From the NCBI GenBank assembly GCA_020832445.1, contig JAFIEO010000023.1, forward strand, positions 1 through 64,000: 64,000 nucleotides of DNA. Reading direction: 5' to 3'. Both the position numbers and the translations under genes were made by a program. This DNA comes from Paracoccaceae bacterium. Lineage in GTDB: Bacteria > Pseudomonadota > Alphaproteobacteria > Rhodobacterales > Rhodobacteraceae. The notes below the pieces were generated by a model, which was not told where the DNA came from, searched no databases, and saw only the letters and a list, made by a program, of their open reading frames with translations. This document shows positions 8,950 through 39,523 of the stretch, in pieces. Position 1 is the first letter of the stretch. Each line of letters starts with the position of its first letter.

Positions 8950-9852
8950 TCAGCGGTCATCCTGCCACAACTCCATCTCCCACCCTTCCGGCGGCGTGCA
9001 TATCTTTGGGTCAGGCGGCAACAGCGACTCTGTGTCCTTGAAATCATACGGCAATTGTCCAAGAATATGGCGCAGAACGGCCAGCCTTGCGCGAAACTTG
9101 TCTTCGGACCGGATAACCGTCCAAGGGGCAAAATCCGTATGGCTGCGCTGGAACGTTTCCGCGATGGCATGGGTGTAGCTGTTCCATTTCTCCAGCCCAT
9201 CAATGTCGATGCGCGACAGCTTCCAGTGTTTCATCGGATCAGACTCTCGCGCAAGCAGGCGGCGCAACTGCTCGGCACGGCCCACATTCAGCCAGATCTT
9301 GATCAGATGGACACCATCCCCCACCAGCATGCGTTCAAATTCCGGCACCTGATGGAAAAAACGGTCGCGCTGCGCAGGTGTGCAAAACCCGAAAACATGC
9401 TCGATCACGGCGCGGTTATACCAACTGCGGTCGAACAGCACCATTTCACCCCCCGCCGGCAGACATTCGACATAGCGCTGGAAATACCATTCGCGCAACT
9501 GGCGGTCTGTGGGGCGCGGCAGGGCTTCGACCCGAACCGTGCGGTGATTCGTGACTTCGGTAATCCGGTTGATGGCCCCTGATTTTCCGGCGGTGTCGCG
9601 CCCTTCAAAAATGACGACCACACGCTGGCCGGTTTCCGCAATCCAGTGCTGTAGCTTGACCAGTTCGAATTGCAGCGGCTTCAGATCATCTTCGTAATCC
9701 GACTTTTTCATCCAGCGCGGATAGGGGTAATTGCCTGCCAATGTGTCACGCTTGCGCGCGTCAAGGACCGTCTGGCGCAATACTTCAGGCGCAGTGTCGT
9801 TCAAGAACGCGGTAACCAACCCGTCAAGGGGCATCGGGATTGCACTCATCAC
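8950..9852 (-). CDS. ppk2: Polyphosphate kinase 2
   Basis: About 300-residue, single-domain PPK2, which uses polyphosphate to phosphorylate nucleoside diphosphates (or runs in reverse). Motifs: Walker A-like GRDTAGKSG (residues 84-92), the lid-type sequence RTVRVEALPRPTDRQLREWYFQRYV, Walker B MVLFDRSWYNRAVIEHV, and VIRSEDKFRARLAVLRHIL near the C-terminus. Length and motifs fit the one-domain class I group. Translation starts at GTG 9852 or the next codon, ATG 9849, behind AAGGA. It stands alone between an IclR gene and a tRNA. Confidence 0.95.
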   Translation of the reverse strand: MMSAIPMPLDGLVTAFLNDTAPEVLRQTVLDARKRDTLAGNYPYPRWMKKSDYEDDLKPLQFELVKLQHWIAETGQRVVVIFEGRDTAGKSGAINRITEVTNHRTVRVEALPRPTDRQLREWYFQRYVECLPAGGEMVLFDRSWYNRAVIEHVFGFCTPAQRDRFFHQVPEFERMLVGDGVHLIKIWLNVGRAEQLRRLLARESDPMKHWKLSRIDIDGLEKWNSYTHAIAETFQRSHTDFAPWTVIRSEDKFRARLAVLRHILGQLPYDFKDTESLLPPDPKICTPPEGWEMELWQDDR

Positions 9853-37384: not shown

Positions 37385-37413
37385 TTGACTTCCGCCCCGC
37401 CAGATTGTGTATC
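37385..37413 (+). promoter_or_regulatory. Candidate sigma-70 promoter for aspS
   Basis: TTGACT (37385-37390), a 17-base spacer and TGTATC (37408-37413) lie about 40 bases upstream of the aspS start codon. The -35 is good and the -10 weak. No other good candidate is seen in this gap. Confidence 0.4.
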
Positions 37414-37453
37414 GCGCGACAAGCCTGCACCGATGTAACCAAGGGAACAGCCC

Positions 37454-39412
37454 ATGCACGCCTATCGCAGCCATACCTGCGCAGACCTGACCGCCGCCCA
37501 TGTGGGTGAAACCGTGCGCCTGTCCGGCTGGGTGCATCGCATCCGCGACCATGGCGGGGTTTTGTTTATCGACCTGCGCGACCATTTCGGCATCACGCAG
37601 GTTCTGGCCGACAGTGACAGCCCCGCATTTGCCGATATCGAAAAGCTGCGTGCAGAATTCTGTGTCCGCATCGAAGGCACGGTCAAGGCGCGCGATGCAT
37701 CGCTGGTCAACACCAAGCTGAAAACCGGCGAGATTGAAGTCTATGCCCGCAAGATGGATATTCTGGGGGCGGCTGACGACCTGCCGCTGCCTGTGTTCGG
37801 CGAACCGGACTACCCCGAAGAAACGCGCCTGTCCTACCGTTTTCTGGACCTGCGCCGCGACAACCTGCATGCCAATATGATGCTGCGCTCCAATGTGGTG
37901 CGGTCCATGCGGCAGCGCATGTGGGACACGGGCTTTACCGAATTCCAGACGCCCATCATCACGGCATCAAGCCCCGAAGGGGCGCGCGATTTTCTGGTGC
38001 CGTCGCGCCTGCATCCTGGCAAGTTTTATGCCCTGCCCCAAGCGCCGCAGCAGTTCAAGCAACTGATCATGGTGTCGGGGTTCGACAAATATTTCCAGAT
38101 CGCGCCCTGTTTCCGCGATGAAGACCCGCGCGCCGACCGGTCGCCCACAGATTTCTACCAGCTTGACGTAGAAATGAGCTTTATTGAGCAGGAAGACGTA
38201 TTTTCCACCGTAGGCCCTGTGCTGCAAGGCGTGTTCGAGGAATTTGCGGGCGGCAAAAAGGTTGACCCTGCTGCGGACTGGCCGCGCATTCCCTATGCCG
38301 AATCGCTGTTGAAATACGGCACCGACAAGCCCGATTTGCGCAACCCGATTGAAATGCAGGTGGTGTCCGACCATTTCCGCGACTCCGGTTTTGCGATTTT
38401 CGCGAAACTTCTGGAAAATGACGGGACAGAGATTCGCGCCATTCCCGCGCCCACCGGCGGGTCGCGCAAGTTCTGCGACCGGATGAACGCTTTCGCGCAG
38501 GCGCAGGGGTTGCCGGGGATGGGGTATATTTTCTGGCGCGAGCGAGATCGCTCGCCTGTCTATAACGAAGTTATGGCTAAAATTGAGGCCGGAGACACGG
38601 ATTTTAGTCAGTTCCGAGCCGAATCTGAGTATTATAAGGATTTTGAAAATAGGATCGTCAGCATGCTCAAGGCTGGCGACCCACTGGACAAGATTAAGGC
38701 TCGTGAACTGGCTGAACTTTACCTTGGAGACATCGAAGCGGCCGGACCATTGGCCAAGAATATTGGCCCCATTCGCACCGAAGCCATCCGCCAACAACTT
38801 GGCCTCGGTATAGGTGACGCCGCTTTCTTCCTTGGCGGCAAACCCGCCCAGTTCGAAGGGGTGGCCGCGAAAGCGCGTGACGAGATTGGCCGCGAATTGA
38901 AGCTGGTGGATGAAAACCGCTTTGCTTTCGCGTGGATCGTCGATTTCCCGATGTATGAAGCGGATGCCGAATCCGGCAAGATTGATTTCAGCCATAACCC
39001 GTTTTCCATGCCGCAAGGCGGAATGGACGCGCTGGACGGTGATCCGCTACAGGTTCTGGGCTATCAGTATGATCTGGCCTGCAACGGTTATGAATTGCTG
39101 TCGGGTGCTATCCGCAACCACAAGCCGGAAATCATGTATCGCGCCTTTGAAATTGCGGGCTATCCGAATTCCGAAGTGGACAAACGCTTCGGCGGTATGG
39201 TCAAGGCGTTCAAATATGGCGCGCCCCCCCATGGTGGCTGCGCGGCGGGCATTGACCGGATTGTCATGCTGCTGGCGAATGAACAGAATATCCGGCAGGT
39301 CATCATGTTCCCGATGAACCAGCGCGCCGAAGACCTGTTGCTGCACGCACCATCAGACCCGACCAATGAACAGTTGCGCGATCTGGGGTTGCGACTGGCA
39401 CCGAAATCCTGA
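37454..39412 (+). CDS. aspS: Aspartyl-tRNA synthetase with an in-frame insertion
   Basis: 652-residue class IIb synthetase that charges tRNA-Asp (probably also tRNA-Asn). The OB-fold tRNA-binding domain ([30 protein letters not shown]), motif 2 ([31 protein letters not shown]) and motif 3 ([19 protein letters not shown]) are intact. Bacterial AspRS is usually about 590 residues; the excess is a block of roughly 60 residues between GMGYIFWRE and [12 protein letters not shown], where relatives have only a short linker. The block lies near the end of the inserted (GAD) domain and is AT-rich. All catalytic motifs lie outside it, so the enzyme is likely active. ATG at 37454 follows AAGGGA. Confidence 0.96.
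38541..38725 (+). other. In-frame, AT-rich insertion within aspS
   Basis: About 60 codons without counterpart in the AspRS family as I know it. By hand count, 38581-38700 has about 47 % G+C against 67 % just upstream (38461-38520). Codons rare elsewhere in the window (AGG, AGT, TCT, CGA, TAT) cluster here. The peptide is charged and helix-prone ([19 protein letters not shown], then [20 protein letters not shown]). The left edge overlaps a perfect inverted repeat, GCGAGCGA-GA-TCGCTCGC (38538-38555). Exact boundaries are estimates from where the family alignment resumes. Confidence 0.7.
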
Positions 39413-39421
39413 TTTCAGGCG

Positions 39422-39458
39422 GGGTGTGCGATCCATCATCGCGCACCCTGTTTCATTC
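39422..39458. terminator. Rho-independent terminator after aspS
   Basis: GGGTGTGCGAT pairs with ATCGCGCACCC (11 bp, one T-G pair) around a CCATC loop, followed by TGTTTCATT. It starts 10 bases after the aspS stop, in the convergent gap before the orphan receiver gene, and may serve both directions. Confidence 0.65.
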
Positions 39459-39523
39459 CGACACGCCGCATTTCGCCACACCCTGCCGGACCCGCGCTCG
39501 CGGCATAATGGCGCATGACCCTG

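Follow-up and report, generated by a model that had tools for sequence, protein, structure and literature searches.

In the family of the analysed genome, a loop of the GAD domain of aspartyl-tRNA synthetase (AspRS) is a slot whose alleles replace one another between related species. The alleles are a short linker, a fairly conserved insert of 29-30 amino acids, or divergent or unrelated inserts of 35-94 amino acids. Two clear pairs of genes show the exchange of a short segment, which comprises the insert and some tens of bases of the adjoining aspS sequence. Our best reading, which we put forward tentatively, is that the insert is a swappable acidic surface domain diversified by a putative antagonist of AspRS.

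The extra domain in AspRS

The gene aspS occupies positions 37454..39412 on the forward strand of the window (the whole stretch of 64,000 nucleotides analysed) and was identified by its matches to AspRS models. Its product, an aspartate--tRNA ligase of 652 amino acids, is the single AspRS match in the genome of the window. It scored 772.9 bits with model NF001750 (cut-off 443), and a Foldseek match to 1eqr (E 2.8e-56) indicated the AspRS fold. The aspartate--tRNA ligase models covered the protein in two stretches, the best stretch of NF001750 stopping at residue 375. The roughly 60 extra residues noticed in an earlier, sequence-only reading of this DNA are indeed present: 63 codons (residues 364-426, positions 38543..38731, forward strand) directly follow the sequence ...GMGYIFWRE. 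Alignment with relatives moved the boundaries proposed at that time (38541-38725) by a few bases. The block is a hypervariable insert of the kind that we call type II, with helices predicted at residues 368-379, 392-407 and 410-424.

The GC content of the insert is 0.47, as had been estimated, against 0.57 for the whole gene. The 150-base segments adjoining the insert have values of 0.54-0.63, and the earlier estimate of 67% for the flanks was thus too high. The contrast is sharper at third codon positions (GC3), with 0.48 in the insert and 0.70 in the rest of the gene, which agrees with the foreign codon usage described before. An Rfam search over positions 37400-39500 gave no match at E 0.5, and an RNA element was set aside.

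The slot was predicted to lie in the GAD domain, and this was confirmed with a relative lacking the insert (L007), in which the Pfam GAD model covers residues 317-405 (28.1 bits, cut-off 23.4). In the window AspRS only the first half of the model was matched, with a score of 16.8 bits, below the same cut-off. AlphaFold models of the window protein and of the protein of Defluviimonas L162 showed, between GAD strands, one helix followed by a helical hairpin, with one additional short helix in L162. The pLDDT of blocks around the insert was 71-85 in the window protein and 67-89 in L162; in both models it was below 50 in parts of the catalytic domain. The models thus suggest that in the window AspRS the GAD domain is split by the insert, with GAD strands on either side. 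When 226 AspRS sequences were compared with L007, all insertions of at least 8 amino acids were found at residues 361-370, three loci (L239, L233 and L219) excepted.

Distribution of slot contents

Across the family the slot is filled in one of two ways, by a linker of 1-6 residues or by an insert of 29-94 amino acids that keeps the frame. The genus survey comprised 37 genomes including that of the window, 34 of which had an AspRS match. The slot was spanned in 29 of the 30 genus loci (L001-L030), L015 being cut off. Ten of the 29 carry an insert (63, 82, 78, 71, 53, 39, 92, 94, 30 and 30 amino acids), and 19 have a linker of four residues such as GDDG, in line with the expectation that close relatives would lack the block. 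The insert takes the place of the linker and does not interrupt it: in most cases WR-AGDDGL-EAAGPLA is changed to WR(K/E)-insert-EAAGPLA. In L005 and L006 the residues adjoining the slot differ as well.

The family survey included 246 genomes, the window's among them, with one genome per species in the comparison set; AspRS was matched in 245. Beyond the genus set 128 loci were read, 28 chosen by score and 100 in list order, two at contig ends having been left out of the latter set. Forty of the 128 carry an insert longer than 20 amino acids (29-84), 11 of these being of a second kind, type I, with 29-30 amino acids. The query behind the score ranking contained an insert, which biases the ranking towards genes with one, and the reading covered only part of the genomes; 40/246 is therefore a floor and not a rate. 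Among named loci, inserts of 29-76 amino acids were present in 10 of 80. The named carriers include Paracoccus subflavus, P. sediminilitoris, Defluviimonas salinarum, Cypionkella, Roseovarius, Rhodovulum steppense and Afipia.

The slot of the other 88 of the 128 loci is 1-6 residues long. This lack of a large insert in most of the loci read fits the main rival of our reading, a serious possibility that we rank below it. According to this explanation the GAD hairpin is a permissive loop that tolerates domains brought in by recombination with foreign aspS, and selection demands little beyond harmless folding. A sporadic insert outside the family would fit it too. In Afipia (L230, positions 9084-9206), labelled as lying outside the family, AspRS has a 41-residue insert of lower GC content at the same slot, and the phenomenon may therefore occur beyond the family.

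The comparison was extended to 289 genomes sampled across the class, five of them of the family. Here the non-family AspRS align across the slot among the matches listed; one of those listed ends early at a contig end. A slot-centred query applied to the 65 non-family genomes with more than one match found a match in 63, none with an insert of 20 amino acids or more, the largest excess at the slot being 13 codons. Ten viral contigs encode AspRS. The slot is spanned in nine of them, with 0-44 residues by the coordinate rule, of which the value 44, at least, looks like an alignment fault. Genome G006 contains a second, partial aspS piece (C408, 10458-11408; 77% identity) that aligns through the insert region in one stretch, and its other aspS has a short linker. 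The second piece could be a contamination or a second allele.

Exchange of slot segments

A tree was built from the aspS flanks of 33 sequences (28 of the genus and five others; L015 and the short L030 were excluded), omitting two codons before the slot and fifty after it. Insert presence required 11 changes on this tree, compared with a mean of 10.8 when presence was shuffled; 323-339 of 500 shuffles needed as few as 11, and at least seven changes are forced by well-supported branches. Insert presence is thus random with respect to the flank tree. This too is as expected for a permissive loop. Vertical inheritance with matching composition, which the sequence-only reading had named as the finding that would speak against its claim, does not describe the data of the genus: on the genus-centred tree the distribution did not follow the gene tree, and GC3 of the longer inserts is low.

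The window and G033, the nearest relative found, are sisters on the flank tree, with branches near 0.01. Over 20 kb they aligned in two blastn pieces with 95.1% and 96.6% identity and 19 and 1 gap letters, respectively. The sole break, at 38544/38730, is the slot. That the only break in 20 kb of near-identical DNA falls there speaks against a loop that is merely permissive. Both inserts are of type II, with 63 amino acids in the window and 82 in G033, and they are 40% identical over 52 aligned codons. Between the two genes dN is 0.010 in the flank and 0.675 in the insert (52 alignable codons).

The divergence extends beyond the insert. In the 84 bp after it (38732..38815, forward strand) there are 25 differences from G033, followed by four in the next 316 bp, which makes this stretch a likely recombination tract. 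The upstream flank (38412..38542, forward strand) is near-identical to G033 until 4 bases from the slot; two differences lie within these 4 bases and the next one at 37 bases. This flank contains the conserved block GMGYIFW, which may be the place where upstream crossovers can fall. Among the loci compared, the best identity to the 84-bp tract was 80% over 90 bp, and no donor was found there.

The second clear pair is L017, of the window's genus, and L059, of another genus. Their 30-residue type I inserts are identical at 89 of 90 nucleotides, and the identity continues without a difference for 42 bp upstream and 41 bp downstream, whereas pS in the rest of the gene is 0.50. It follows that segments containing the slot move by recombination. 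The earlier suggestion of a recent or mobile insertion is therefore supported as far as horizontal movement is concerned, and not as an isolated event: the slot is hypervariable throughout the family, and the window insert is one of its alleles.

As a general signature in the genus, higher divergence of the flanks is a small effect. Mean identity in the 30 bp before the slot was 87% for pairs of insert-bearing loci and 94% for pairs of empty loci; the corresponding values for the 30 bp that follow the slot were 70% and 84%. Farther out the two kinds of pairs differed little. The tract argument is therefore based on the two clear pairs. In L005 (G035; insert at 2590-2748) about 90 bp downstream of the insert are unusually different (VAKGPIANNIGQDRCEAIRDQLNL). 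Their best match among the loci compared was 67% over 90 bp, which suggests a donor that is not among the genomes sampled. Between L003 and L013, both of the genus, the 90 bp on either side of the slot are 96-98% identical and the inserts differ (78 and 94 amino acids).

The genes of the window were also sought in the regions of eight relatives. The upstream order was kept wherever it was covered, except for the farthest gene (977 amino acids) in L288. The downstream neighbours were present in L281, L283, L284, L285 and L287 and partly in L286, and were not found in L282 (empty slot) or L288 (insert). Among the genes sought in these eight regions, none was seen to be tied to the insert.

Insert families, composition and selection

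The first 50 inserts were grouped by phmmer (E < 0.001). The largest group, type II, has 22 members, the window insert among them; type I has 13, two further groups have four and two, and nine inserts are singletons. Type II members share a C-terminal helix pattern with the consensus I-x6-GD-x3-A-x2-L-x4-FG, of which A alone is invariant; their N-terminal halves are barely alignable. A type II profile searched against the 246 family genomes gave 19 strong hits (E <= 4.5e-9), every one within aspS, most of the genes concerned having fed the profile. Weaker hits were one more aspS (E 7e-4) and 15 loci elsewhere (E 6e-4 to 0.05). At seven of these 15 the longest reading frames were inspected; none was AspRS-like, and some are possibly shadow frames. 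The domain is thus present in aspS of 20 of the 246 genomes, and outside aspS these gave no strong hit, a confinement that counts against a merely permissive loop.

No family in Pfam, PHROGs or PADLOC was matched by more than one of 25 type II members (E 0.05), and a PDB sequence search with type II gave a designed protein as best match (E 0.048). The window insert is a member of an orphan helical domain family with strong hits solely in aspS. Type I members had scattered weak matches, helix-turn-helix families among them. A 29-residue type I insert with near-host GC3 is conserved in ten genera (L087, L093, L100, L101, L113, L120, L127, L128, L142 and L145) and is possibly a tamed, vertically inherited version.

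All 60 inserts of more than 20 amino acids at the slot are in frame and free of stop codons. The in-frame character claimed for the window insert is thus general, which argues against chance and against a one-off assembly error. In the 45 non-type-I inserts mean GC3 was 0.494, compared with 0.810 in their genes. It was lower than in the own gene in 44 of 45, and in 41 of 44 it was below every segment of the same length in that gene. GC1 and GC2 barely differed from those of the genes, indicating that amino acid content is not the main cause of the low GC3. In type I inserts GC3 was 0.632, against 0.773 in the genes, and lower in 13 of 15. Insert and host GC3 were weakly correlated (Spearman 0.41, p 0.006), and some inserts may therefore be long resident. 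Low GC3 in hosts of varied GC3 suggests that slot contents are renewed, a further point against mere permissiveness.

In 19 of 20 insert pairs pN was lower than pS, the exception being L017/L059, which differ by one base. This comparison is informative for the better-aligned pairs only, dS being mostly saturated. Examples of pN/pS are 0.17/0.85 for L048/L058, 0.28/0.93 for L050/L202, 0.34/0.78 for L162/L164 and 0.03/0.50 for L087/L113. These values support that the well-alignable inserts are translated and constrained as proteins, as would also be expected if folding were the only demand in a permissive loop. The ratio of insert dN to flank dN was 1.7-6.8 in 13 non-type-I pairs, 68 in the window/G033 pair and 0.2-2.5 in six type I pairs. 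Values of dN exceeding dS were not obtained for the inserts, with synonymous sites mostly saturated and low-identity pairs saying little.

Mobile elements, phages and gene capture

The sequence-only reading had compared the insert with the palindromic elements of Rickettsia. An in-frame mobile element of such a kind would account for the foreign composition and the intact frame, and the left edge of the insert coincides with an inverted repeat of two perfectly matching 8-bp arms around a 2-bp loop (38538..38555, unstranded; hairpin search and shuffles). Among the 45 non-type-I inserts a left-edge hairpin of at least 7 bp was detected in the window and L033 only, where shuffles predict about 0.2. 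Against this, the short linker is replaced and not interrupted, and in its own genome the peptide is present once, the only further match being at E 0.05. The strong type II hits in the 246 family genomes are confined to aspS. End-to-end matches beyond the shuffled range were seen in only two of 45 inserts (8 and 9 bp), and a repeat resembling a target duplication is lacking in 42 of 45. Copy number, confinement to aspS and the lack of clear ends make this origin highly improbable, and the comparison did not hold up.

Searches of viral contigs with four inserts (window, L002, L008 and L013) found no relative, and a phage origin was rejected for these four. In 147 genomes the L013 insert had no relative except in its own, and the L008 insert had just two weak hits (E 0.0018 and 0.0089). 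Capture from another gene was set aside, the searches with these two inserts having given no clear source.

tRNA charging

Asparaginyl-tRNA synthetase (AsnRS) was not detected above the asnS cut-off in any of 62 genomes, the window's included (34 with and 28 without an insert). As a positive control, the same model exceeded the cut-off in seven of 14 control genomes. The AspRS of the window therefore probably also serves tRNA-Asn, and in all 62 genomes AspRS is the sole candidate for charging it. An effect of the insert on tRNA recognition had been considered possible. In this explanation the domain would tune the handling of tRNA-Asp and tRNA-Asn or the docking of GatCAB in a transamidosome, and the location of the slot would suit it: the GAD/insertion domain of AspRS contributes to positioning the tRNA, as described in PMC4237437. 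However, AsnRS is missing with and without an insert alike, so that a link between the two was dismissed. The net charge of all 45 non-type-I inserts is negative, a point against RNA binding, and near relatives have no insert or an unrelated one. We consider this explanation unlikely, and the proposed effect is not supported by these data.

Discussion

The observations can be combined into a tentative model in which a putative antagonist diversifies the acidic surface domain. The alleles show that the GAD loop between two strands is a domain-exchange slot, and in the two clear pairs the insert was swapped together with tens of bases of the aspS flanks. Exchange as homologous recombination would do it keeps the frame. 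The insert would be an acidic helical domain that is exposed to the solvent and does not disturb catalysis. AspRS is an essential enzyme and the window's genome has a single one; the insert is therefore presumably compatible with catalysis. The fast turnover may be due to an antagonist, for instance a phage product, a toxin taken up by the cell or some other inhibitor, to which this surface of AspRS serves as a binding or sensing site. A domain that is new or missing would then escape, common ones would be targeted and rare imported alleles would rise. Since the insertion domain helps to position the tRNA (PMC4237437), an antagonist bound there could block the enzyme. The Pfam, PHROGs and PADLOC searches with 25 type II members and the viral-contig searches with four inserts gave no lead to an antagonist.

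With a shade more reserve, we consider it possible that the loop acts as a hypervariable decoy or shield against a phage or competitor protein, exchanged across genera and deciding whether such a protein can bind the essential enzyme and stop it, or as a kin mark. A narrower explanation, that the insert is a self/non-self marker conferring immunity to an AspRS-targeting toxin of the same strain or its kin, would be consistent with the extreme allele diversity among near relatives. The immediate neighbours of the window aspS (a GGDEF response regulator, a DUF3572 protein, a response regulator and a glyoxalase-like protein) include nothing toxin-like, and we regard this explanation as quite improbable.

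Essential cytoplasmic enzymes are expected to be conserved, yet at a single precise position in a tRNA synthetase the domains of near-identical genomes differ greatly. If the turnover is driven by an antagonist, the slot points to a new class of anti-synthetase weapon and provides a simple genetic handle for finding it. If it is not, the slot is a place where nature itself inserts domains, which could serve enzyme engineers and studies of the origins of orphan domains. No description of such a slot in AspRS was found in the open-licence literature among the matches listed. If the antagonist reading is true, this would be, to our knowledge, the first hypervariable slot of its kind in a tRNA synthetase.

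The window AspRS shares enzyme and fold with the bacterial GAD-containing AspRS of E. coli (1c0a/1eqr) and with the non-discriminating AspRS of P. aeruginosa (4wj3/4wj4). In the phmmer alignment residues 370 and 377 of the 4wj3 chain bracket the slot; unlike the window AspRS, this chain has only a few residues there and no domain. The Rickettsia palindromic element, described in PMC10969869 as an in-frame insertion of about 150 bp inside a housekeeping gene, is similar in size, frame and type of target; for the slot inserts, in contrast, no dispersed copies were found, strong hits were confined to one gene and there are no clear repeat ends. Also comparable are the exchange of target recognition domains in restriction enzymes and other mosaic alleles. 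There, too, divergent domains are swapped via conserved flanks, whereas here the slot is located in an essential tRNA synthetase and the domain has no known recognition task. Aminoacyl-tRNA synthetases and RNA polymerase are known to carry stable lineage-specific insertions that are thought to be vertically inherited. They likewise represent an extra domain in a core enzyme, but the aspS slot turns over between sister species.
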